Positions 38,994-63,826 of a stretch of DNA of 64,000 nucleotides are shown in pieces (position 1 is the first letter of the stretch; every line of letters starts with the position of its first letter). The DNA comes from Maridesulfovibrio sp. (GTDB lineage: Bacteria > Desulfobacterota > Desulfovibrionia > Desulfovibrionales > Desulfovibrionaceae), in the NCBI RefSeq assembly GCF_963676065.1, contig NZ_OY780933.1, forward strand, positions 1,538,001 to 1,602,000, in the 5' to 3' direction. Position numbers and translations under genes: made by a program. The notes below the pieces were generated by a model. The model worked only from the letters and a program-made list of their open reading frames with translations, made no database searches and was not told where the DNA came from.

Positions 38994-40055
38994 TTATCGC
39001 TTCAGCTTTACGACTTTCCCAGTTGGTTTTTGGATGGATGGTTTCAGATTTACAGCGCGCTGTTTTTCGCCCTGAAGCAGATGGTAATATCTTTTCTGGG
39101 TGGTGGTGATGTCGGAGTGTCCGAGAAGGGAAGATACCGCCGCCAAATCTCCACCATTGCGGAGAAGTTCAGAGGCGTACAGGTGGCGAATGTCGGACCA
39201 TGTAACCTCATAGTTGAGCCCTGCTCGTTTTGCTGCGGTCTGGAGGCTCTTGAACATTTGCTTAACCGGTTTCCCCTTGTATTCGATTATGTATTCGCTC
39301 TTTGCTTTTGAGCGCATAGAGATAAGCCGCCCGTTGTCTTCAGGGGTCAGAGGTATGAAGCGATCTGACTTCTCTGTCTTGGTTCCGCGGACATGGATGG
39401 TTGCGGCGCGAGGATCATGGTCAGACCAGAGAAGGGAAAAAAGTTCTGACGGGCCGGTTCTGGCTCCGCACATCCACGCCACCTCAAGTCCCCATGCAGC
39501 ATGAGGAGCAGCAACGGCAATCATGCGGGTCAGGCCATCAACATCAAGACCCATATTGCGTTTACGCTCTTTGGATTTGCGCCATTTCTTGAGGGGGTTA
39601 TTTGTGGTGATTTCCTGCTCTATACCGTAAAGGAAAACGGCGCGGAGGTATCCGAAATATCTATTCAGAGTTGCAGGCTTTACTTTTTCAGGAGACCATG
39701 CCGTCTCGGTCAGAATGAGCAGATCGGAGTATTCCAGCTGGTCCACGGGCTTGTGAGTGAGAGCAGGCAGGACAGTGTTATTAAGGATGGAACTCCATGT
39801 TTTTAGGAACTCAGCACCGACATTTCGTGCTTTGGCATCCCGCAAATATTCTTGAGCAAGCTCATCAAGATAAACTTCTGAGCCATGGCGAATCTCAACG
39901 CCTCTGGCCTTTTGTAATGAAATTTCTGCGTCACGGACCTTTGCATGCTTTAAGGACTCCGGACCTCTCCCGCAATATTCTCTAACAGGGCTCTTGCGCC
40001 CTTTTACTCTGTACTGGACATAATGACGTCCATCTTTAGTTGTTCCTACTCCCAT
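38994..40055 (-). CDS. int: Tyrosine recombinase, phage integrase
   Basis: 353 residues. N-terminal arm-binding and SAM-like core-binding domains precede the catalytic domain with the first arginine in CGARTGPSEL, a lysine in GTKTEKSDRF, the RH pair in WSDIRHLYASEL, GH in LGHSDITTTQ and the nucleophile tyrosine in KRYYHL. The first histidine of the usual HxxRH box is replaced by serine, a tolerated variation. It recombines at the tRNA-Pro 3' end next to its own stop codon. Confidence 0.93.
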   Translation of the reverse strand: MGVGTTKDGRHYVQYRVKGRKSPVREYCGRGPESLKHAKVRDAEISLQKARGVEIRHGSEVYLDELAQEYLRDAKARNVGAEFLKTWSSILNNTVLPALTHKPVDQLEYSDLLILTETAWSPEKVKPATLNRYFGYLRAVFLYGIEQEITTNNPLKKWRKSKERKRNMGLDVDGLTRMIAVAAPHAAWGLEVAWMCGARTGPSELFSLLWSDHDPRAATIHVRGTKTEKSDRFIPLTPEDNGRLISMRSKAKSEYIIEYKGKPVKQMFKSLQTAAKRAGLNYEVTWSDIRHLYASELLRNGGDLAAVSSLLGHSDITTTQKRYYHLLQGEKQRAVNLKPSIQKPTGKVVKLKR

Positions 40056-46341: not shown

Positions 46342-47718
46342 TTAGTTGGTAGGGAAGACGTCGGGCAGATCAGCACCGTTTGCCAGCATGGTATATGCTT
46401 CAAGCAACTTGGTGCGGTCCTTCTTGGTCCACTGGTTCTGGCTTTTGCTGACCAACCGTTCCATGTCTTTCAGGGTTCCACCCCAAGGCCCCATAACGTC
46501 TACGAGAATCGTATTCCGGACGGATGCTTGAGAACCTTCATATTCCTCAGCCTTGTCTCCGAGGTTGGGAGAGAGGTCGGCTTCGGTGAGTTCGGTCTGA
46601 GCTTCATGTTCCACGGGCTGTTCATTCTGCTGCGGTTCTTGGTCGAAGAACTCTTCTTCTGCGGAAGGTTCAGCCTGCTCGTTCTGAACAGGTTCGCCCT
46701 GCTTGGTTTTCTGGTTAACCGGCTGAGAAGTGGGCTGCTGATCAAGCTGTTTCTGCTCAGGCTCAACATCCATGGCGGTGTCTTCCTGCTGTGCGGGTTG
46801 AGTCGGTTCGTCGTGGATCGGATCGGTATCGATGTACTGAGGAGTTCCGTCGTTAAGGATCTTGGCATTGTCTCCGGCCATGGCCTGCTGCATTTCAATG
46901 GACATGATGCCCCATTTACTTATGAGCTGGCGGATCATGGTTTTGTAGGCCATGCCATCAAAGTCTTTGTACCAAAAGGAACTGTACTTCCACATATCCC
47001 GATCAGAGACTTTGCCATCCATCAGAAGGCGGTAATCGTCGAGTTTGAAAGCAGCACTGTATGTGTCGGCATGAATTTCCATTTTCTCTTTGGGCCAGTA
47101 CATTGTCTTACGAAAGCCGTTGAGAAGTTCAAACATGCAGTAATAGCCGACAGTGGGAGTGTTCTCGCGCTGCATGGTGTCCTGAATAAGTTCCACTTCA
47201 ATTTCTTCAAAGAGCGGGTCGTATCTTTTCAGTTCGCCTTCTTTAATGGAAATGACGTTCATCTTTTTGTACTGGCCGGAGCGGATAGCAAGCTGAGTAT
47301 ATCCCTTGTAGCCGAGCTGGAAAGTTGCGGTCTTACAACCGGGCATGTTGTTGTATTCGCACTGCTTGTTGCAGAATCGCCAGTCGTTTTTTCTGCTGGG
47401 ATATTTGCACATCTTCTTGTCTTTGAAGGGAACCATATAGAAGTGCCCGAGCTGAGGACTGGGGGAGAGTCCGAGGCTTTCGCCGAGAAGGGCTGCACTT
47501 ACAATCGAACCGGGCTGACAAGCTGCAATTGCAGGGTTGGTCGAAACTGCCGAAACCATGGAAGCGATAAAACGATCACCGGCTTTGGTGCCGATCATGT
47601 TCTGAATGTGCTGTTTGGGGGCAGTTGAGGTGATGTATCTGGAAAAGCTCTGTGCCGGGGTCAGCTGAGGGCTGTTGCCATTTCCCTGGGGGGCCAGTGA
47701 ATTTTTAGGCTGAGTCAT
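46342..47718 (-). CDS. recT: RecT-family single-strand annealing protein with cysteine-rich insert
   Basis: 458 residues. The RecT core is seen in MVSAVSTNPAIAACQPGSIV, SAALLGESLGLSPSPQLGH, YMVPFKD and FQLGYKGYTQLAIRSGQYK. Between the last two there is an unusual insert with four to five cysteines (MCKYPSRK, FCNKQCEYNN, PGCKTA) not typical of RecT. The C-terminal 150 residues are low complexity and rich in Q/E/P. It pairs complementary single strands and works with the nuclease encoded upstream. Confidence 0.88.
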   Translation of the reverse strand: MTQPKNSLAPQGNGNSPQLTPAQSFSRYITSTAPKQHIQNMIGTKAGDRFIASMVSAVSTNPAIAACQPGSIVSAALLGESLGLSPSPQLGHFYMVPFKDKKMCKYPSRKNDWRFCNKQCEYNNMPGCKTATFQLGYKGYTQLAIRSGQYKKMNVISIKEGELKRYDPLFEEIEVELIQDTMQRENTPTVGYYCMFELLNGFRKTMYWPKEKMEIHADTYSAAFKLDDYRLLMDGKVSDRDMWKYSSFWYKDFDGMAYKTMIRQLISKWGIMSIEMQQAMAGDNAKILNDGTPQYIDTDPIHDEPTQPAQQEDTAMDVEPEQKQLDQQPTSQPVNQKTKQGEPVQNEQAEPSAEEEFFDQEPQQNEQPVEHEAQTELTEADLSPNLGDKAEEYEGSQASVRNTILVDVMGPWGGTLKDMERLVSKSQNQWTKKDRTKLLEAYTMLANGADLPDVFPTN

Positions 47719-47730
47719 AATCTATACTCC

Positions 47731-48639
47731 TTAAGCTGCTTCTTTGGTTTCAGAGGGCACGGGGCCGAAGGCGATACCATTGTTGTTCAGGAACGCTTTC
47801 AGCTGCTGAAGCTGGTCGCGGGTAGCGGTGACACGGAAGTCCACGGTTACCTGTTCGGGTTTACGCTGGACTTCTACTGGTCGACGCTGTTCTTCCTGAG
47901 CGGACTGGGTGGACTGCTGAACAGGCTTAGGTTCCGGCTTCGGCTGTGCGTTGGCTGCTGCCTGACGGGCTTTTTCGGCTTCTTCCTTCTTGACCCGTTG
48001 TTCTTCGGCGTATGCTTCACGCTTTGCTTTTTGTTCAAGGAGGCTTTTGTTTTCGGCCAGAGCTGCGGCAATGGAGAAAGTCTTCAAGTAAACCCGGATC
48101 ACCTGATCTTCGAATTCGGTGTTTAATTCTTCAATGGTGGCGATTTCGGTTTCAGTAGTTGCGAAGAAGGCTTTAATTTCTTCCTCGATTTTGTTCATGG
48201 AGTAGGTCTTATTGAGCCAGCGAGAATCGAAAACACGGTCCAGACTCACCAGCTTCTTTACGCTGGATTCCTGTTCTTCCCAGAACTGCTTAATCGCGGC
48301 ATGCTTTTCTTGCTTCAGGCGCTCTTCGTATCCTTTGACCTGGGCGTCGATAGCGGCCCAAGGCTTTTCAACCAGCTCAATCAGCTCCTTGACCTGCCCC
48401 TCGAATATGTTGAAAGGCTCAAGGTATTTCTTCTTCATTCTGATCCGCTCAGCGTTCATGGCTTCCCTGAATTTATTAAGGGTTTTCCTATCTTCTTTGG
48501 CGTCGCTGATAGTGTCGTCTGTGTATACGAGGTCATGATATTTCTCTGCCTTGGTCGCGATTTTTTCCTTGAGTTCTTCGTAGTTGAACTCAAGCTTTTT
48601 CGGAAAATCCTCTTCCTTGGTGAGCATCTTAATTTCCAT
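47731..48639 (-). CDS. DUF1351-like phage protein
   Basis: 302 residues, mostly charged helices: ELKEKIATKAEKYHDLVYTD, DRKTLNKFREAMNAERIRMK and KVKKKYLEPF-type segments typical of DUF1351 proteins found between RecT and exonuclease genes in phages; a Q/P/E-rich linker precedes a final VTVDFRVTATRDQLQQLKAF domain. Likely accessory to recombination. Confidence 0.7.
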   Translation of the reverse strand: MEIKMLTKEEDFPKKLEFNYEELKEKIATKAEKYHDLVYTDDTISDAKEDRKTLNKFREAMNAERIRMKKKYLEPFNIFEGQVKELIELVEKPWAAIDAQVKGYEERLKQEKHAAIKQFWEEQESSVKKLVSLDRVFDSRWLNKTYSMNKIEEEIKAFFATTETEIATIEELNTEFEDQVIRVYLKTFSIAAALAENKSLLEQKAKREAYAEEQRVKKEEAEKARQAAANAQPKPEPKPVQQSTQSAQEEQRRPVEVQRKPEQVTVDFRVTATRDQLQQLKAFLNNNGIAFGPVPSETKEAA

Positions 48640-49288
48640 GTGAAGGCTCCTTTATTTTTGGCAGGATCAAATCCGGCCTGGTGTCTGTTTCAACGTATCT
48701 CCAGAAAGCAAGTTCCGCTTTAAGAAGGTGGATTGTGTCGCCGATGTGGTTAGACCTTTCAAAGTGGTAGTGATTCTCGGTGATACTAACCGAGCCTCCC
48801 CACTCATTTTTTATTCTGGCTTTCAGAATGGCGAACTGTGCGCCTGTGACCAGCATGTAATGAAGCAGCTGAATGAAATAGTTTTGCGGGACCTTGTTTT
48901 TCCACTTGTCGTAGTCGGCCCCGCGTTGGACTGTGGTGGTCTTGATTTCCAGTATTCCGAGTCTCCCGGCCTGATCCCAAAGCATGCCGTCAAGGGAAGC
49001 TTGCAACTGAGGGTAAACAGGGTGCTGGAGAACAACATTTTCTTCGTGCTTAACTCTGAATTCCGGGTAATCCAGCTTGAACATTTCCCGCATAAGAGGT
49101 TCACAAGCCACGCCGTACTTGACGCATTCCTTGTCGGAAATATCTTCGTCTTCCCGGCGTCCGGTCTTCTCTTCCCAGAGTTCGACGTTTGTCTTCCACT
49201 GGCTGAGGCCGAGAGCTACGGAAGCATCGGAGCCGCCGAGCCCTTTTCTGCGGGCCTCAAGCCATTCTTTGCGGGTGGGGGTGGTCAT
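48629..49288 (-). CDS. YqaJ-family phage exonuclease
   Basis: 219 residues of the lambda-exonuclease/YqaJ nuclease fold: LGGSDASVALGLSQWKTN, ASLDGML (metal-binding D) and LGILEIKTTT (E-x-K), followed by FIQLLHYMLVTGAQ. It would resect 5' strands to give substrate for RecT. Overlaps the DUF1351-like gene by 11 bp. Confidence 0.88.
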   Translation of the reverse strand: MTTPTRKEWLEARRKGLGGSDASVALGLSQWKTNVELWEEKTGRREDEDISDKECVKYGVACEPLMREMFKLDYPEFRVKHEENVVLQHPVYPQLQASLDGMLWDQAGRLGILEIKTTTVQRGADYDKWKNKVPQNYFIQLLHYMLVTGAQFAILKARIKNEWGGSVSITENHYHFERSNHIGDTIHLLKAELAFWRYVETDTRPDLILPKIKEPSHGN

Positions 49289-50028: not shown

Positions 50029-50483
50029 GCTGACCTCCGGCTTTGTTTGGGGTTAATTGGGACTTGGCAAGCGACCTTATAAACCTGCCAAGCCCCGTTC
50101 CTTAATTGCTGCCTCGAACCCTGTGAGGGTGGCGGGACCGGGGAAAGTCCCGCCGAAACCCATTATGGAGGTGTGATGAGTGATAGACACACGAGGGGTG
50201 TATGCCTTCACAGAGTCCGAAGCGGTTTCTGACTTTTTTCGCATGGGGTACGGAGGTTGAGTCAGAAAGAAATCAAAGATCCAAAAGCAAATTCAGATAA
50301 TTAAGTTAGAGTGTTGAGTTATTAAGTTTTTCTAAATAGCTGGCCGACATTCGTGCCGGTCAGTTGCCACAACCATTTGGGAAATTTGAACATATCCAAC
50401 AACTGCCTAAATCGTTACCCGCGTACTGGCCGGACATCGTCGCGACGGATTCGGCGGGGCGTGTTTCGCTGTCGTTGAGGAAA
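50029..50483. promoter_or_regulatory. Leftward early control region (no gene)
   Basis: No supported gene. It contains a perfect 8-bp GGCGGGAC hairpin (50131-50154) and probably the leftward early promoter and leader, since the leftward operon starts at 50028 and two operator-like sites lie at its right edge. Confidence 0.5.
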
Positions 50484-50498
50484 TGATACCAAATGGCA
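50484..50498. promoter_or_regulatory. Phage operator-like site OL1
   Basis: TGATACCAAATGGCA, the reverse complement of TGCCATTTGGTATCA; nearly the same as the site at 52564-52578. Confidence 0.6.
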
Positions 50499-50515
50499 TT
50501 CTTGTGTCAACATAA

Positions 50516-50530
50516 AATTCCATATGGCAT
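50516..50530. promoter_or_regulatory. Phage operator-like site OL2
   Basis: Contains TTCCATATGGCA, a half-conserved copy of the same motif 32 bp from OL1. Confidence 0.5.
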
Positions 50531-50540
50531 TCGAGTGGGC

Positions 50541-50566
50541 AAAAAAAATCCCCGCCGGAGCGGGGT
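50541..50566 (-). terminator. Terminator of lysogeny operon
   Basis: On the minus strand CCCCGC-TCCG-GCGGGG-ATTTTTTTT. It ends the repressor operon just before the operators of the leftward early promoter. Confidence 0.88.
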
Positions 50567-50754
50567 TATCTGCTTGCTAATTCTTCTTCGACTTTCTTGC
50601 GTATTTTTTGTGAAAGATTGCGGGCAAATTTATTGGGATCAGTACTTTCGTCGTCAACCATACGTCTATTCGCTAATTGCGGAAAGTAGTCGGCTTTTAC
50701 GTCTTCCCACGATCGGTATTTTTTGGTTTCATTTTTGGAGTTATTATTCTGCAT
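50566..50754 (-). CDS. Small charged protein in lysogeny operon
   Basis: 62 residues from ATG 50754 (GGAG upstream), polar, with WEDVKADYFPQLANRR and a C-terminal basic/acidic helix (KKVEEELASR). Its start overlaps the end of the Ntn-hydrolase-like gene, so the two are translationally coupled and may act together. No family recognised. Confidence 0.55.
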   Translation of the reverse strand: MQNNNSKNETKKYRSWEDVKADYFPQLANRRMVDDESTDPNKFARNLSQKIRKKVEEELASR

Positions 50755-52033
50755 TTTTATCTCCAAAGTAGTTTTGGAAAAAGTGGTGATTTAAACTTGG
50801 GTCAAAGTAATGTTTTCGTTTGATCCAAACAAAACCATCACCTTTAGTGATTATGGCCACGTCGGTTGGACCGCCTACACTCTCACGATCAAAAGACATT
50901 CGTCTTTTAATACCTGTTAAGTTTACCAACGTTTCAGCAAAAAGCGCAAGTTCTGATTTTGGTAGTATGCTAACAATTTTTAAAATTGGTCCGACGTGAT
51001 TATCATATTTATATTTATGAATTTCGTCATGAAAGCTGTCGGTTAGTTTCTTTTCATATGACTTGGCAAACTCTCTGATATTATTAGCTTGCTCTCCATT
51101 CTGAGATTCGACACTTTGAGCACTTTCGTTAAGCATTGATGTAAAGTCATTGATCATATTGTAAAAAAGACTTTGAATCATACTTTCAAAATGGGGGTGT
51201 ACGCCCGCTGTAAAAACTTCGATCATGTCTCTTTGCGCAAAAGCCATTAGGTCTGAGGGCGTTTTATGACTAATTTGGCTTTCTAAGTCATCTATCCAGT
51301 GTAAATTTCCTCTTAAGGAGAGTCCCACTTTGAACGAAGATACTGCTGGAAAAAACTGATCTTCTCCAAATCCAGCAACAACGACCCCAGAATACGAAGG
51401 TTCGAATGTTGTCTTGGAAAATAACGCGTAGGCAGCGGCTTTAAATTTGATGTAAAGATCTGAAATTTGAGAGCTGAAAGGTTCAATTTGTTTGTATGCT
51501 TCGTTAATACTGGCAGCGTATGTGGAACAAAATTCTTCTTCTGAAAAAGAGTTGGTGATAGGAGCATTGTGTTGTTGCTTAAGTATCTCAAATTCGTCCA
51601 AAAGAACTTCACACACAATCGTATCGACCTCTTCTTTTGAAAGAGAATCTTTTTTATTTGCTTCCCGGTCTACGTAAGCCCCCGCTTTGTTGAGGGCTTG
51701 AGAAATGAAAGAATCTAACCCGAAATATACGTTAGCGGCTTCGTTCTCGGTGTCGCAGGGCAGTCCCTGTAGAAAGAGTCTGAATTCTTGAGCATACTCA
51801 GCTACCGTCGAAAAATGTTTTGTCCCTATTCGATCTCGAAAAACCTTGATAATTGTTTCCCATGGAGTGCCCATAAAATTGGCAGCTGAGTATACCATTA
51901 TCCCTACAGGGTGATGTTTGGAGAGGGTAAAAATTTTTTCTGCTGTTGGGAATATTTTATGCTGGCTGCTTACAGCACTGTCTGCAGCAAGTGCAACGGC
52001 TGTTTTATTTAATATTGCGATTTCTGTAGTCAC
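50744..52033 (-). CDS. Proteasome-like Ntn-hydrolase protein in prophage repressor operon
   Basis: 429 residues. The N-terminus MTTEIAILNKTAVALAADSA lines up with proteasome/HslV beta subunits (T-x-x-x-x-x-x-K/D-x-x-V-x-L-A-A-D), giving Thr3 as candidate nucleophile, the LAAD aspartate, and a lysine in AEKIFTLS about 30 residues from it; VGIMVYSAANFMG matches the following strand. The rest is a long helical extension not found in proteasome subunits. Transcribed right after the repressor (1 bp gap), so it should be made in lysogens. A defence or proteolysis role is inferred. Confidence 0.6.
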   Translation of the reverse strand: MTTEIAILNKTAVALAADSAVSSQHKIFPTAEKIFTLSKHHPVGIMVYSAANFMGTPWETIIKVFRDRIGTKHFSTVAEYAQEFRLFLQGLPCDTENEAANVYFGLDSFISQALNKAGAYVDREANKKDSLSKEEVDTIVCEVLLDEFEILKQQHNAPITNSFSEEEFCSTYAASINEAYKQIEPFSSQISDLYIKFKAAAYALFSKTTFEPSYSGVVVAGFGEDQFFPAVSSFKVGLSLRGNLHWIDDLESQISHKTPSDLMAFAQRDMIEVFTAGVHPHFESMIQSLFYNMINDFTSMLNESAQSVESQNGEQANNIREFAKSYEKKLTDSFHDEIHKYKYDNHVGPILKIVSILPKSELALFAETLVNLTGIKRRMSFDRESVGGPTDVAIITKGDGFVWIKRKHYFDPSLNHHFFQNYFGDKNAE

Positions 52034-52034
52034 G

Positions 52035-52493
52035 CTAACTCCCCTTTTGCTTTGCCGCTGCTTTCTTCATAACAATCTTAGGGTTCTGGTCTGTTTGATT
52101 GCATATCTGGTATACTATTTCAGCGGGAACCGGTTCCTCTCCGGAAAGAATCTTTTTCAATTCTTCTTCCTTTCTTCCAATACTGCGGGCCATATCTGAA
52201 AAAGATATGTCACTGTATTCAATATCTTCCAATAAAATTTTTGCAATGGCGACATCAAAGGCAGATCGAGGGCGCGCGGGCTCGATCTCTTCGGCGTCGC
52301 TGAACACTATGCGAGCCCCAATTGCATCAAGTAGATGACTCAATTTTTCAAAGTCAGGGGCGCGTTGTTCTGCAAGCCATCGCGTAAGCGTGACCGGATT
52401 CATATCCGCATATTCCGCAAGGGCTCTTGCGCTGGAAAAGCGTTTGACGATGGTCTGCCTTAATCCCTCAAGTGTGTCTTCGTATATTCCCAT
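52035..52493 (-). CDS. Prophage repressor, XRE-type
   Basis: 152 residues with an N-terminal helix-turn-helix (FSSARALAEYADMNPVTLTR, WLAEQRAPDF) and a second HTH-like segment (ISFSDMARSIGRKEEELKKI). Divergent to the Cro-like gene, with palindromic operator GATACC-AAAA-GGTATC 12 bp upstream of the start. Likely the lysogeny-maintaining repressor and autoregulator. No LexA-type protease domain is present, so induction must use another route. Confidence 0.78.
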   Translation of the reverse strand: MGIYEDTLEGLRQTIVKRFSSARALAEYADMNPVTLTRWLAEQRAPDFEKLSHLLDAIGARIVFSDAEEIEPARPRSAFDVAIAKILLEDIEYSDISFSDMARSIGRKEEELKKILSGEEPVPAEIVYQICNQTDQNPKIVMKKAAAKQKGS

Positions 52494-52504
52494 AATTATT
52501 TATA

Positions 52505-52520
52505 GATACCAAAAGGTATC
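52505..52520. promoter_or_regulatory. Phage operator OR, perfect palindrome
   Basis: GATACC-AAAA-GGTATC between the repressor and Cro-like genes. Confidence 0.7.
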
Positions 52521-52563
52521 ATTTTTAGCTGCTTCCATACGGTTGTTTGTTGACCTTTTGTAG

Positions 52564-52578
52564 TGCCATACGGTATCA
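52564..52578. promoter_or_regulatory. Phage operator-like site OR2
   Basis: TGCCATACGGTATCA, 8 bp before the Cro-like start; same motif as the sites at 50484 and 52505. Confidence 0.65.
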
Positions 52579-52585
52579 TTGCGGC

Positions 52586-52801
52586 ATGAACATCAAAGAA
52601 GACCTCAAAAAATTCTTGGAAGACACCGGCTGGACGGCTGCGAAGCTTGCAAATGAGGCGAATATTTCGGCCCCGGTAATCACTCGCTTTTTAAGTGGAG
52701 CTCGTAAGGGGCTTCATTCGTCCACCCTCGAAAAACTCTGGCCCTACCTCTACGGCGACAAACGCCCGAAACCCGAAACTAAACACGACCAGGCGGCGTA
52801 A
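52586..52801 (+). CDS. Cro-like regulator
   Basis: 71 residues from ATG 52586 (MNIKEDLKKFLEDTGWTAAK), a compact helix-turn-helix (LANEANISAPVITRFLSG). First gene of the rightward operon, facing the repressor across the operators; the family role is to shut off the repressor during lytic growth. Confidence 0.8.
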   Translation: MNIKEDLKKFLEDTGWTAAKLANEANISAPVITRFLSGARKGLHSSTLEKLWPYLYGDKRPKPETKHDQAA

Positions 52802-53109: not shown

Positions 53110-53652
53110 ATGAGAAAGAAATACTCGCTTGAGTCGTGGGAGATAATGGACGAAGCCAAGTCTGTGCTCAAGGACCGCGCACTTTCAAAAGCAATCGGCC
53201 TATCAATCCCCCAGACAAATAAATATTGCGCTAACCCGGAGTGTACCGAAGATACTCATCCAAACCCGTTGGACCGCACTTCAGGGATGATCGTGAAGTT
53301 GTGTGAGTCGGGGGGAGCGAAGGGTCGTGAAGTCGCTAAGCTGGCATTGAATTATCTTGCTTGTGATTGTGGTTTCAAGGTTGTGGATGCAAACAGGCCC
53401 AAACCCGTCACAGACGAACCCCGGGCCGAATTCCTGGAGATTTTTAACCGGGTCAATGAGCTGCAGACGTCAGCCCAGAACCACGAAGATCCGCTCATAG
53501 TCGACTCGTATGCGTCCAAGGTAAAAGATACCACGGACGCTTTTATTGTGCGCTACATGGCCGATTACCGTGAGCGTGATGGCCGAGTCCGTTTTTCCAA
53601 AAAAACAGAACCCCTGTCAGCATGGCAGCGGTTTAAGCAGTGGTTTGGGTAG
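53110..53652 (+). CDS. CII-like phage regulatory protein
   Basis: 180 residues, of the type seen in phage CII-like regulators: SIPQTNKYCANPECTEDTHP and NPLDRTSGMIVKLCE, then a helical C-terminal half. Position after the Cro-like gene and before replication genes fits CII. AGAGG lies upstream. Confidence 0.65.
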   Translation: MRKKYSLESWEIMDEAKSVLKDRALSKAIGLSIPQTNKYCANPECTEDTHPNPLDRTSGMIVKLCESGGAKGREVAKLALNYLACDCGFKVVDANRPKPVTDEPRAEFLEIFNRVNELQTSAQNHEDPLIVDSYASKVKDTTDAFIVRYMADYRERDGRVRFSKKTEPLSAWQRFKQWFG

Positions 53653-53662
53653 GGGAATTGGC

Positions 53663-54565
53663 ATGACTGGCTGGATCAGACTCCATAGGTCGCTTGCAGA
53701 GTGGGAATGGTACACCGATTCCAAGACTCTTCATCTGTTCTTACACCTACTCATAAAAGCGAACCACAAACCTGCCAAACACAGAGGAACTGTGATTGAA
53801 CGAGGCCAGCTTTTGACTGGCCGTAAGCAGCTCGCTTCTGAAACAGGGATTTCAGAGCAATCAATACGCACAGCACTTAATCGCCTAAAATCAACCAACG
53901 AAATAACCATCAAATCAACCAGCAAGCACAGCGTTGTAACTGTCTGTAATTACGATAAATACCAAACTCCAGAAGAAGGAGTTAACCAGCAAAATAACCA
54001 ACCAGCTAACCAACAACTAACCAACGATCAACCAGCAACTAACCACAAACAAGAATGTAAAGAAGATTTAAATACATTGGGGTGTGGGGATCGCGCGCGC
54101 GTTGATCCTCCTGCCGCCTCTTCGCCCGAAAACCGCCCCCAAGAACCACCTCCGCAATCAGGTCCAAAACACACAGACAGCCCGAGCAAATCCAGACCGT
54201 CCTATCAGGGCTTTAAATCCTGCTGGCAGGTTTACCCGCTCAAGCAGGACGAAGAGGCCGCTTGGTGCGAATGGTGCCGACTCGAAGACAAGCAGTTGCT
54301 TCCAGACCCGTGGATGGTTCGTGAAGCCATCATCCTGCTGACTCAGGAAGACGACAAGTTTCAGCGTGGGTACCTCGTTACTTTCGCCAAGTGGCTCAAA
54401 GGCAAGAGGTGGAACGACGAACCTTTCCAGAAACCCGCACAGCAGAACGGAGGACCGCCGGGAATACCCCAAGGCGGACAAGGCAAGGTGGTCCGCATGA
54501 CCAGAGATCAGGCAGTGCATCAGGAGAATTACGAATCGAATCAACGCTTAATGCTGGAGGATTAG
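53663..54565 (+). CDS. Phage replication initiator (O-like)
   Basis: 300 residues from ATG 53663 (GGGGAATTGGC upstream). N-terminal winged-helix region GWIRLHRSLAEWEWYTDSKT with SEQSIRTALNRLKSTNEITI, typical of phage replisome organisers; then an N/Q-rich linker, a proline-rich spacer, and a C-terminal domain (SYQGFKSCWQVYPLKQDEEA). DNA coding for the linker is repetitive (53981-54053) and may be the origin, as in lambda O. Confidence 0.78.
   Translation: MTGWIRLHRSLAEWEWYTDSKTLHLFLHLLIKANHKPAKHRGTVIERGQLLTGRKQLASETGISEQSIRTALNRLKSTNEITIKSTSKHSVVTVCNYDKYQTPEEGVNQQNNQPANQQLTNDQPATNHKQECKEDLNTLGCGDRARVDPPAASSPENRPQEPPPQSGPKHTDSPSKSRPSYQGFKSCWQVYPLKQDEEAAWCEWCRLEDKQLLPDPWMVREAIILLTQEDDKFQRGYLVTFAKWLKGKRWNDEPFQKPAQQNGGPPGIPQGGQGKVVRMTRDQAVHQENYESNQRLMLED
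53981..54053. repeat. Iteron-like repeats, candidate phage replication origin
   Basis: Repeated AACCA-type units (TAACCAACCAGCTAACCAAC and variants) inside the O-like gene, at the same relative place as the lambda origin in gene O. They also encode the N/Q-rich linker, so function as an origin is inferred. Confidence 0.4.
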
Positions 54566-61879: not shown

Positions 61880-62337
61880 TGGCAAGCAAGCGCGAAATTT
61901 GGCTTTGTCACTATCTCGACCAGAGCGACCCGAAAACATACCTCAACGCCGCAGAGTCTGCGAGAGCCGCCGGGTACAAGTGCGCCAAGGATAATTTTAA
62001 GAAGATCGGCTACGTCAACCGCCGGGAATGCGAGAAGCAAATAAACGACTGGCTTGATGATGCGGGTCTTTCCGAGAGTGTTTTAAAGCTAAAGCTCGTT
62101 TCGCTGCTCGATGCCAAAGAAACCAAGTTTTTTCAAAAGGATGGTCTCGTTAAAACAGCCGTTGAGGTTGAAAATTTAGGAGTTCAGCAGAAGGCTCTCG
62201 ACATGGCTATGAAAATGAAGGGCATGTATGCGCCGGAGAAAAAGAAGGTCAGCTTTGAGGATGACGAAGGCAAGCAAGCGGTAGTCGGCTTTTTCGCGAA
62301 AGTCATGGGGGTTGATGATGACCCTGCAGGAGATTGA
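61879..62337 (+). CDS. Terminase small subunit
   Basis: 152 residues starting MASKREIWLCHYLDQSDPKT, with a helix-turn-helix-type segment (NAAESARAAGYKCAKDNFKK) and a late helical oligomerisation part (VQQKALDMAMKMKGMYAPEK). Pairs with the large subunit, overlapping it by 20 bp. Recognises phage DNA for packaging. Confidence 0.8.
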   Translation: MASKREIWLCHYLDQSDPKTYLNAAESARAAGYKCAKDNFKKIGYVNRRECEKQINDWLDDAGLSESVLKLKLVSLLDAKETKFFQKDGLVKTAVEVENLGVQQKALDMAMKMKGMYAPEKKKVSFEDDEGKQAVVGFFAKVMGVDDDPAGD

Positions 62338-63826
62338 ACAGAACGTCCATAGCAAGAAATGGAGACTTGAGAACCTTTACTACATCAAGGACGTAAAGGG
62401 CCAAGAGATCAAGTTCAAGCCCAACTGGGCACAGTCTCGTTTCAACAAGGACGCTCACTCTCGAAACATCATCCTGAAGGCAAGACAGCTGGGGTTGACA
62501 ACATTTGCTTGTATCGACGCCTTAGACGACTGCCTGTTTAAGAAAAATTTTAAGGCTGGGATCATCGCCCACGTAAAGGAAGATGCCCACGAGTTCTTTG
62601 AAGACAAGATTCAGTTTGCCTACGACAGACTGCCCGAAGAAATAAGGGCGGCGAATCCGGCAACTACCGACAAGGCAGGAAAGCTGGCCTTTGCAAACGG
62701 CTCCTCGATCAGGGTTTCGACCTCGTTTCGTTCAGGGACACTGCAAAGGCTGCATGTCTCCGAGTTCGGTAAAATCTGTGCCCAGTATCCCAAGAAGGCC
62801 AAGGAGATCATCACCGGGGCCTTAAACGCAGTTCATACCGGGATGCGTGTGGACATTGAGTCTACTGCTGAAGGTCGCCTCGGCAAGTTCTACGAACTGT
62901 GTACCGAGGCTGAGAATCTTCAGCTTTCAGGCGGCAAACTGACAGATGAAGATTTTAAGTTCTGGTTCTTTTCATGGTTTCAGCATCCGGAATACCGGCT
63001 TGATCCACACGGGGTGCAGATCACCAAGGAGATGCAGGACTACTTCGCCAAGGTCGAAGCGGAAACTGGCATCACCTTAGAGCCTGAACAAAAGGCCTGG
63101 TACGTCAAAAGGTACGCGGTTCTTGGTGACGACATGAAGCAGGAGTTTCCGTCCACTCCTGCCGAAGCTTTTGAACAGACGATTCAGGGGGCTTACTTCT
63201 CCAGTCAGTTCCAGAAGATTCGGAAAGAAGGACGGATTTGCCGGGTTCCGGTTCAGGGCGGAGTGTCCGTCGACACATACTGGGATCTTGGGATGAACGA
63301 TGTAATGGCAATCTGGTTTGTTCAGGTCATTGGCCGGGAGTGCAGACTGGTCGATTACTACGAAAATTCCGGCGAAGGCTTGGAATTTTACGCCAGAGTC
63401 CTTCAGGAAAAGAGGGTTGAGAGAGATTTCTTCTACGGGACTCACTACGGGCCTCACGACTTGGAGGTCCGGGAATTGGGAACCGGGATAAGCAGGATTA
63501 AGCGGGCTGGGCAGCTTGGGATTGATTTTCAAGTAGTCCCAAGGGTTGGACAGAAGTCAGACTCCATTGAAGCTGCTCGTAATGCACTAAGTCTTTGTTG
63601 GTTTGATGATGAGCATTGCTCACTGGGTATTCAGAGACTGGAAGGATACCGCAAGAAATTTAACGACGTGCTCGGGACTTATTCATCACAGCCCCTGCAC
63701 GACATCTGCTCAAACGGAGCAGATGCATTTCAGCAGCTTGCAATGGCCTGCCCGCTGTTTAGCGGCAGAGGACGAGGGTTCAAGTCCCGCCCAATCAAAA
63801 AAGTTTCAAGGAGAGGATGGACATAA
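62318..63826 (+). CDS. terL: Terminase large subunit
   Basis: About 502 residues. ATPase part: variant Walker A in LKARQLGLTT, LHVSEFGK as Walker B, and DIESTAEG as coupling motif. Nuclease part: VDTYWDLGMNDVMAIW with catalytic aspartates and GPHDLEVRE. It powers packaging and cuts the concatemer. Start at 62315 or 62318, both after a G-rich ribosome site. The stop overlaps the next start (TAATG). Confidence 0.9.
   Translation: MTLQEIEQNVHSKKWRLENLYYIKDVKGQEIKFKPNWAQSRFNKDAHSRNIILKARQLGLTTFACIDALDDCLFKKNFKAGIIAHVKEDAHEFFEDKIQFAYDRLPEEIRAANPATTDKAGKLAFANGSSIRVSTSFRSGTLQRLHVSEFGKICAQYPKKAKEIITGALNAVHTGMRVDIESTAEGRLGKFYELCTEAENLQLSGGKLTDEDFKFWFFSWFQHPEYRLDPHGVQITKEMQDYFAKVEAETGITLEPEQKAWYVKRYAVLGDDMKQEFPSTPAEAFEQTIQGAYFSSQFQKIRKEGRICRVPVQGGVSVDTYWDLGMNDVMAIWFVQVIGRECRLVDYYENSGEGLEFYARVLQEKRVERDFFYGTHYGPHDLEVRELGTGISRIKRAGQLGIDFQVVPRVGQKSDSIEAARNALSLCWFDDEHCSLGIQRLEGYRKKFNDVLGTYSSQPLHDICSNGADAFQQLAMACPLFSGRGRGFKSRPIKKVSRRGWT

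Follow-up and report, generated by a model that had tools for sequence, protein, structure and literature searches.

Why would a dormant prophage keep the gene for a predicted proteasome-like enzyme, together with that of a tiny companion protein, directly behind its own repressor gene? This arrangement occurs in a 64,000-nt stretch of Maridesulfovibrio sp. DNA (contig NZ_OY780933.1, positions 1,538,001 to 1,602,000; hereafter the window). The first-pass annotation of the window had reported a gene after the prophage repressor with a proteasome beta-type N terminus and a 300-residue extension, followed by a coupled 62-residue gene and a strong terminator. We first asked whether this description was correct. 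The 429-aa ORF begins (V/M)TTEIAILNKTAVALAADSAV, carries EKIF and starts with GTG 1 nt after the repressor's stop codon (52035-52037). The 62-aa ORF overlaps its end by 11 nt, and a GC-rich hairpin with a T-run follows directly. Hence, the observation is real, though two points required correction. The coordinates originally given, 50744-52493, cover the repressor and the enzyme but leave out the 62-aa gene and the terminator, and the extra length of the enzyme is not a terminal extension but two helical inserts inside the fold. The features of the locus are as follows.

52035-52493, minus strand: prophage repressor gene, 152 aa, first gene of the operon (HTH_26, E 1.4e-6; PHROG transcription regulators, best E 3.6e-6)
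50744-52033, minus strand: proteasome-type Ntn hydrolase gene, 429 aa, GTG start; fits PMI-4
52028-52030, minus strand: codon of Thr2, equivalent to mature Thr1, the candidate nucleophile
51980-51982, minus strand: codon of Asp18, taken as Asp17 of the proteasome
51935-51937, minus strand: codon of Lys33, taken as Lys33 of the proteasome
51416-51751, minus strand: predicted helical insert 1 (residues about 95-206), after helices H1/H2
50966-51196, minus strand: predicted helical insert 2 (residues about 280-356), between H3 and H4
50566-50754, minus strand: small partner gene, 62 aa
50550-50565, minus strand: putative intrinsic terminator right after the partner gene
52505-52577, no strand assigned: operator-like cluster between the repressor and a divergent small gene (sites 52506-52520 and 52563-52577; a further half-site 52535-52543)
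50485-50531, no strand assigned: second operator-like cluster (sites 50486-50500 and 50517-50531)
50483-50510, minus strand: leftward early promoter-like site in the second operator-like cluster (TTGACA, 16 nt, TATCAT, TG before the second hexamer; 11 of 12 matches)
52495-52522, minus strand: weak promoter-like site in front of the repressor (ATGATA, 16 nt, AATAAT; 9 of 12 matches)
52550-52579, plus strand: rightward early promoter-like site (TTGACC, 18 nt, TATCAT; 10 of 12 matches)
52586-52801, plus strand: divergent 71-aa gene, Cro-like by inference only (HTH-like by eye, no PHROG match)

To determine if the enzyme has the fold of a proteasome subunit, we predicted its structure as a monomer with AF2 (pLDDT 93.2, pTM 0.90). 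Residues 2-407 of the model aligned with residues 1-191 of yeast beta5 (Z 18.8, rmsd 2.9 over 183 residues), and model residue 2 was the first to align, with residue 1 of beta5. In an alignment of 129 enzymes, Thr2 was kept in 127 (1 Ser, 1 gap), while Asp18 and Lys33 were kept in all 129. This alignment comprised the window enzyme and 128 of 129 listed relatives: the shortened enzyme of locus L082 was left out (L numbers denote the collected loci), and L056, a fragment, and near-identical enzymes had been dropped beforehand. The two inserts held no invariant or nearly invariant column. A near full-length PHROG match (E 3.7e-101) was obtained to a family of unknown function. A sequence search against solved structures gave no hit, Pfam, NCBIfam and PADLOC gave nothing above cut-off for either protein, and the Pfam Proteasome family (PF00227) scored 16 bits over residues 1-40, below its gathering score of 22.4. 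Foldseek on the whole model returned proteasome chains at best E 1e-4, with target TM 0.57 and rmsd near 20, because of the inserts, and a BFVD fold search gave no match at E <= 0.001. We conclude that the ORF encodes a proteasome-type Ntn hydrolase, with fold and catalytic residues assigned by prediction and conservation.

We next examined whether the small gene is a regular companion of this enzyme. From 511 cellular and 193 viral relatives found, 80 of each were retrieved. Removing duplicates, near-identical enzymes, incomplete genes and loci with under 300 bases downstream left 137 non-redundant loci. By strict criteria (an ATG ORF of 34-95 aa on the same strand, starting -60 to +50 nt from the enzyme's stop), a small ORF with a median length of 60 aa followed the enzyme gene at 130 of 137 loci, against 151 of 670 control genes. 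Four more loci had such an ORF with a GTG or TTG start and two (L025 and L136) had an ATG start deeper in the overlap, giving 136; only L052 had none. A profile grown from the window's 62-aa protein had 55 hits, itself included, among 29,412 six-frame segments (12 loci were left out as duplicates or fragments), and all 55 lay directly behind an enzyme gene. In 395 genomes there were 8 partner hits, of which the 4 strong ones, the window's own included, all lay beside an enzyme gene. In genome G083 the enzyme gene is interrupted while the partner gene is intact. dN was below dS in all unsaturated close pairs but one, L124/L126, which has no synonymous change. In most diverged pairs the partner is less conserved than the enzyme.

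Perhaps the partners all belong to one family? Iterated profiles divided them into a main cluster of 51, a Bacteroidetes cluster of 13, enteric phage clusters of 11, 6 and 3, three more clusters of 3, and 34 clusters of one or two. Hence, not every enzyme has a partner of the window's type, and what is shown is common place and size, not common descent. Database searches with the partner family gave one PHROG match (E 0.0023), in 1 of 47 members, and none in Pfam; these members were the window protein and 46 of 51 listed partners (L003, L072, L083, L095 and L105 were left out, the last four by choice). The gene can be missed by annotation: it is not annotated in the E. coli prophage we looked at, while in several phage records it is.

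In the window, repressor, enzyme, partner and terminator appear to form one operon between the two operator-like clusters, the position where lambda keeps rexA-rexB. The numbers of promoter- and terminator-like sites in the region (6 and 4) are not above shuffles (means 4.4 and 2.5); it is their place, and for the terminator the predicted fold (z -3.03, 1 of 200 shuffles as good), that speak for them. Similarly, the operator pattern had 10 matches in the window, not more than shuffles (mean 7.1; 20 of 100 shuffles as many), and although 8 of the 10 lie in the two clusters, the pattern was written from those sites.

Elsewhere, the pair lies behind CI, behind endolysin or inverted beside Q. The nearest sizeable upstream gene on the same strand is a CI-type repressor in L123, L132, L143 and L145, with short mechanical ORFs between in all but L132. 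In E. coli (strain H3) the pair is inverted between Q and a methylase, an interval that holds other cargo in the 4 other strains looked at. Of 5 other-cargo proteins from this interval, 1 matched a candidate defence family (PDC-S05, E 8.5e-10) and 4 matched none. A search for E. coli alleles of four other viral variants gave no match for three and mainly repressor DNA for one. The pair also occurs on Streptococcus satellites and plasmids, and its carriers range from ANME archaea to E. coli prophages, many of them bacteria and archaea outside recognised phages. Its distribution is patchy: it is absent from the 16 other genomes of the host's family searched.

We wondered if the surroundings of cellular loci might reveal a function. 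Homologues outside phages in a clear housekeeping operon had been named beforehand as grounds for rejecting the initial reading. Only the first half of this condition applies: many relatives lie outside recognised phages, but among 143 nearest neighbours (3 of 146 were excluded because they overlap the module) no Pfam family recurred in more than 2, with 25 of 171 families listed. The same 143 neighbours matched 229 PADLOC families; the 25 listed, mainly methylases and RmrA, had at most 3 neighbours each, and there was no control set, so these counts do not show a defence-island signal. No PADLOC 2023 family matched enzyme or partner at E up to 10. ThiF and multiubiquitin proteins were found only at L025, L027 and L029 among the flanks searched, and are also annotated at L201; hence, we did not make a ubiquitin-like linkage part of the explanation.

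We favor the view, with a probability of about 0.4, that this is a mobile two-gene accessory module, consisting of a PMI-4-type N-terminal-threonine hydrolase and a small partner dedicated to it that controls or feeds the enzyme. In this prophage the pair is the tail of the repressor operon and so should be made in every lysogen. In this model, Met removal would expose Thr1, and the partner, made in step with the enzyme, would dock through its short aromatic/Pro motif and C-terminal helix and keep the enzyme off or give it its specificity. A competing infection would then disturb the complex and free the hydrolase on a target whose loss stops the infection. Our analysis shows the predicted fold, the conserved catalytic residues, the gene order, the near-universal partner linkage and the mobile sites. 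Binding of the partner, its control of activity and expression in lysogens are inferred, the last from layout only, while infection as trigger, the target and a protective outcome, including superinfection defence as the leading idea for the module's purpose, remain guesses. A bolder form of this reading is tentative, though not excluded: a mobile two-component immune system in which a slowly evolving enzyme is held by a faster-evolving small clamp or sensor protein that infection displaces, carried by prophages, satellites, plasmids and chromosomes of bacteria and archaea.

The interpretation offered in the first-pass annotation was thus supported in part. The Ntn/proteasome beta fold with candidate Thr, Asp and Lys, the operon with the repressor and the linkage with a small gene were supported, the linkage being much stronger than could be known from one sequence; superinfection defence stays a hypothesis. 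The description of the protease as self-activating was not supported, since Thr follows the start Met directly, there is no propeptide, and Met removal would be enough. The novelty of the enzyme was not supported either, as it fits PMI-4 (Fuchs et al. 2021, PMC8665760). For the pairing, searches confined to open-licence PMC papers, with PMC9519451, PMC9122126 and PMC13022661 searched by term, yielded Fuchs et al. 2021 and no title or abstract on it or on defence by it.

Could the small protein have another role? It might be a propeptide working in trans, an assembly or folding chaperone for an enzyme that does an unknown, non-defence job, such as quality control or specific processing, that helps its carrier. 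The missing propeptide is consistent with this, as are the partner's small size, close coupling and lower conservation, and propeptides can be supplied to proteasome beta5 in trans, as PDB titles state ("propeptide expressed in trans"). However, this does not explain the rex-like and moron-like places in phages, and HslV, BPH and Anbu assemble, as far as is known, without such a partner. We consider this reading unlikely, and only slightly more likely than one in which the small protein is the substrate, cut by the enzyme or ligated, whole or in part, to other proteins, as connectase does with its recognition motif or as Pup is attached in actinobacteria. The enzyme core is conserved around the catalytic residues and the inserts are not, a [FYLIV][FYLR]P motif is present in 47 of 51 main-cluster partners against a shuffled mean of 5.4 (maximum 14), and connectase shows that this fold can be a ligase (PMC8665760). 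Yet only 68 of 130 partners hold even a loose form of the motif (shuffled mean 13.7, maximum 27), 0 of 130 end in GGE or GGQ as Pup does, and no ligase or ATPase family recurs among the nearest neighbours in the 25 of 171 Pfam families listed.

A toxin-antitoxin or addiction module that keeps the prophage or plasmid in place is less likely still. Two coupled genes, one small, on prophages, satellites and plasmids would fit, and in one E. coli strain the same prophage interval carries a PemK/MazF toxin; however, neither protein matched a toxin-antitoxin family, and the intact partner beside the interrupted enzyme gene in G083 argues, as a single case, against a freely toxic partner. Least likely is a role in phage regulation, in which the enzyme degrades the repressor or an antirepressor and sets the threshold of induction. 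The enzyme gene shares its operon with a repressor that shows HTH matches and no peptidase domain, and repressor and Q families are the commonest among viral neighbours. However, the commonest repressor family matched only 10 of 141 neighbours of 48 viral loci, and at cellular loci HTH_3, for one, matched only 2 of 143. Moreover, L145 has a repressor with a UmuD-like match, which needs no extra protease.

How does the module compare with known systems? With lambda rexA-rexB it shares position, behind the repressor and before a terminator and the leftward early promoter/operator, as judged here from sequence matches; no family link was found, the enzyme's one strong PHROG being of unknown function and the partner having none. 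Like Pup in the actinobacterial proteasome operon, the partner is a small, partly disordered, helical protein encoded next to a proteasome-type gene, but it lacks the GGE/GGQ end and its gene lies behind the enzyme gene. Connectase is likewise a proteasome-like Ntn enzyme with a helical insert (PMC8665760), but it lacks H1/H2 and has its insert between S3 and S4; here helices 58-69 and 77-89 are present, the loop at 37-42 is short, and the inserts lie elsewhere. The phage proteasome homolog PPH has about 140 residues and lacks H2, in contrast to the 429 aa and the helix 77-89, taken as H2, of the window enzyme. 20S proteasome beta subunits and HslV share the predicted fold and the catalytic Thr, Asp and Lys but not the two large inserts; with 28 HslV-type sequences from the phylum, local hhalign gave only a weak match (E 0.0018, probability 14.6, 40 columns, limited to the first 40 residues), and the global alignment was not significant.

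The closest known system is PMI-4, Proteasome homolog with Multiple Insertions 4 (Fuchs, Alva, Lupas 2021, PMC8665760), a sizeable family (501 sequences at 90% identity) without known function or partner. By architecture and occurrence the window enzyme fits it: a proteasome-like core with Thr1, Asp17 and Lys33, a long insert after H1/H2, another between H3 and H4, no propeptide, and carriers among bacteria, archaea and phages, PMI-4 being the only PMI listed from phages in their Table 1. The new element is the small gene, which provides a first handle on this family, brings the question of what it does within reach of simple pull-down, activity and plaque assays, and points to a use of the proteasome fold in conflicts between mobile elements. 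Fuchs et al. report finding no genomic context suggestive of a function for PMI-4; here a small gene follows the enzyme gene at nearly every locus examined.

To see how the proteasome-like gene is placed in the prophage, we first mapped its surroundings. The window carries the following features.
52035-52493, minus strand: 152-aa HTH repressor
50744-52033, minus strand: 429-aa ORF with a GTG start, beginning one base after the repressor stop
50566-50754, minus strand: 62-aa ORF, overlapping the end of the large ORF by 11 nt
50565-50550, minus strand: intrinsic terminator directly behind the 62-aa ORF
52505-52577: cluster of palindromic operator-like sites between the repressor and a divergent small gene
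50485-50531: second cluster of operator-like sites just beyond the terminator, over a promoter-like site (TTGACA-16-TATCAT, 11 of 12 matches)
52522-52495: weak match to a maintenance promoter (9 of 12)
38997-40055: integrase
46345-47718: RecT-like
48632-49288: RecE-like
53546-54562: DnaD-like
62312-63823: terminase large subunit

The last five are the assignments made among 10 proteins scanned; of the others, four had no match and one matched an unknown PHROG. The surroundings are a prophage. Of 10 matches to the operator site pattern in 64 kb, 8 (four sites, both strands) fall in the two clusters. However, the total is not above that of shuffled sequences and the pattern was written from these very sites, so only the layout counts. 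Repressor, enzyme and partner thus form one operon between the maintenance promoter and the leftward early promoter, the place that rexA-rexB occupies in lambda. Because the maintenance promoter is only a weak match, expression in the lysogen is inferred from layout. The repressor itself shows HTH matches in both halves and no peptidase domain, so SOS-type self-cleavage is not evident.

We next asked what kind of enzyme the 429-aa ORF encodes. The Pfam Proteasome model reaches only 16 bits (cut-off, 22.4) over residues 1-40, while PHROG 5990, of unknown function, matches residues 1-421 (E 3.7e-101). An AlphaFold2 model built from 129 sequences has a mean pLDDT of 93.2 and a pTM of 0.90. Foldseek ranked proteasome chains first (best E 1e-4), but with poor whole-chain superposition (rmsd near 20). 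When those chains were re-aligned with VIA-align, model residues 2-407 were placed on residues 1-191 of yeast beta5 (Z 18.8, rmsd 2.9, 183 residues, 11% identity), with Anbu at Z 18.0. Thr2 thus falls on the catalytic Thr1. Thr2 is kept in 127 of 129 sequences (one Ser, one gap), and Asp18 and Lys33 are kept in 129 of 129. By profile, similarity to HslV-type sequences of the host's phylum is weak and confined to the first 40 residues; hence, membership in the superfamily rests on predicted fold plus catalytic residues. The first-pass annotation had described the extra residues as an extension. In the model they are instead two helical inserts, about residues 95-206 after H1/H2 and about 280-356 between H3 and H4, not an extension at one end. 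Two relatives of 279-281 aa match only the ends of the PHROG profile, as expected if the inserts are additions to a plain core. The host also has a separate gene (contig C1 of its genome, 1925068-1925583) that matches Pfam Proteasome above its cut-off, presumably HslV, so the prophage enzyme is not its only proteasome-type protein.

Is the small ORF a regular companion of the enzyme gene? To test this, we collected relatives from GTDB species genomes (80 fetched of 511 found), viral contigs (80 fetched of 193 found), phage and plasmid records (13 and 10, one plasmid match being partial) and the host's phylum (12 of 395 genomes, some with only fragments, weak hits or insert-less forms, and none of the 16 other genomes of the host's family). 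Among 137 non-redundant loci with a complete gene and at least 300 bases downstream, 130 have an ATG ORF of 34-95 aa that starts between -60 and +50 of the enzyme's stop, compared to 151 of 670 other genes in the same loci (Fisher p about 1e-60; genes of one locus are not independent, so the p is only indicative). Of the seven misses, four have such an ORF with a GTG/TTG start, two (loci L025 and L136) have, as read by eye, an ATG ORF that starts deeper in the overlap, and one (L052) has none. The median length is 60 aa, and 67 of the 130 overlap the enzyme gene.

Starting from the window's 62-aa protein alone, an iterated profile collected 55 segments, its own included, from 29,412 six-frame segments; all 55 lie directly behind the enzyme gene and none elsewhere. 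In the 395 genomes of the phylum, the partner profile had 8 hits at E <= 0.01. Four were strong (E <= 1e-10, own included), and all of these lie beside an enzyme gene. One of these enzyme genes, in genome G083 (locus L194, 1007-1689), is interrupted after about 89 matching residues, while its partner gene is intact. The other four hits were weak (E 0.002-0.006) and fell in frames of 135-583 aa in genomes without a PMI-4 hit. The phylum's remaining full-length enzyme (genome G042) is followed by a small ORF of another cluster, and at the two insert-less relatives we saw no partner of the window's type. One of these, an insert-less PMI relative of 281 aa, is followed instead (locus L009, 1756-2155) by an 89-aa ORF and what looks by eye like the start of a MazF/PemK-type gene.

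The main cluster of partners shares, by eye, Y.S..E(F/Y)....(F/Y)(F/L/Y)P followed by ..LG..LA..SL..I...L; 47 of 51 hold [FYLIV][FYLR]P, against a shuffled mean of 5.4 and maximum of 14. Other clades have other sequences with the same place and size, so homology of all partners is not shown. AlphaFold2 modeling of the window partner gave a low-confidence N-terminus and helices at 16-23, 25-30 and 40-61 (mean pLDDT 76.6, pTM 0.38). In close pairs with unsaturated sites, dN is below dS (for example, 0.05 against 0.30, 0.06 against 0.56 and 0.18 against 1.07), with one exception, the pair of loci L124/L126, which has no synonymous change. The ORF thus looks like a gene under constraint, with the reservation that part of it often overlaps the enzyme gene. 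In most of the diverged pairs, though not all, the partner is less conserved than the enzyme.

We then examined where the pair is found. At cellular loci, 143 nearest neighbors match 171 Pfam families, none in more than two neighbors, so no fixed operon beyond the pair is seen. At 54 non-redundant viral loci and phage records, with neighbors taken as mechanical ORFs of 90 aa or more, the pair runs against both neighbors in 11 and with both in 23; the rest are mixed or at contig ends. Among 141 neighboring proteins of 48 viral loci, the commonest PHROGs are repressors (phrog_4, 10; phrog_8, 8; phrog_2328, 7) and Q antiterminators (phrog_79, 9; phrog_943, 9), beside one unknown (phrog_5735, 9); one protein can match several of these. 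Of 10 upstream same-strand genes chosen for a closer look, 4 are CI-like repressors (loci L123, L132, L143 and L145; short mechanical ORFs lie between repressor and enzyme in all but L132), 2 are endolysins, 1 has an unknown PHROG and 3 have none. In three Streptococcus satellites that we read, the pair sits behind a putative transcription regulator at the element's end, while in a fourth it is not at the end. On plasmids of Mesorhizobium and Rhizobium (loci L025, L027, L029 and L201), the PMI-4 gene lies within a few kb of multiubiquitin-domain, ThiF-family and DUF6527-like genes, in two different arrangements: a ubiquitin-like system beside a proteasome-like enzyme. A ClpP-like gene is also annotated in the Rhizobium plasmids, and in L201 the enzyme match comes in two pieces.

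In E. coli, one allele occurs in 9 of 5,426 genomes, inverted between Q and a DNA methylase. To learn what else this prophage interval (Q antiterminator to DNA methylase/tRNA-Gly, tRNA-Thr; loci L200 and L233-L236) may hold, we looked at four other strains out of thousands of records with matching flanks. Depending on the strain, the interval carries two unnamed coupled inverted genes (343 and 179 aa), a PemK/MazF toxin, an ORF6N protein or an unnamed gene. This is how exchangeable prophage cargo behaves.

How might the pair work? The analysis itself establishes the predicted fold, the catalytic residues, the gene overlap, the linkage and the mobility. From these we infer that the enzyme needs only Met removal to expose Thr1, and that, since the partner is made in step with it, a physical or catalytic relation between the two is likely. 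On present evidence we favor, tentatively, control of the enzyme by the partner, with a conflict-related purpose (superinfection exclusion or a similar protective role in the lysogen), because of the rex-like, moron-like and satellite positions and the patchy distribution. Against a role in defense stand the lack of any known defense match for enzyme or partner and the lack of a demonstrated defense-island signal; of five other-cargo proteins at the E. coli interval, one matches a candidate defense family. The partner might instead be a trans-acting assembly factor or a dedicated substrate that is cut or ligated, and the pair might be an addiction module or serve phage regulation.

The pairing of the enzyme with a small gene appears to be new, as far as our searches of open-licence PMC papers go, which did not find it described; should the immune reading prove right, it would deserve a stronger claim to novelty. 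The enzyme family is known, though without a known function. Fuchs, Alva and Lupas (2021; PMC8665760) defined 22 new proteasome-like families. Inserts at these two places together are given for PMI-3 and PMI-4, and among PMIs only PMI-4 is listed in phages in their Table 1. Judged by such features rather than by direct comparison with the published sequences, the enzyme therefore fits PMI-4 on every feature tested.
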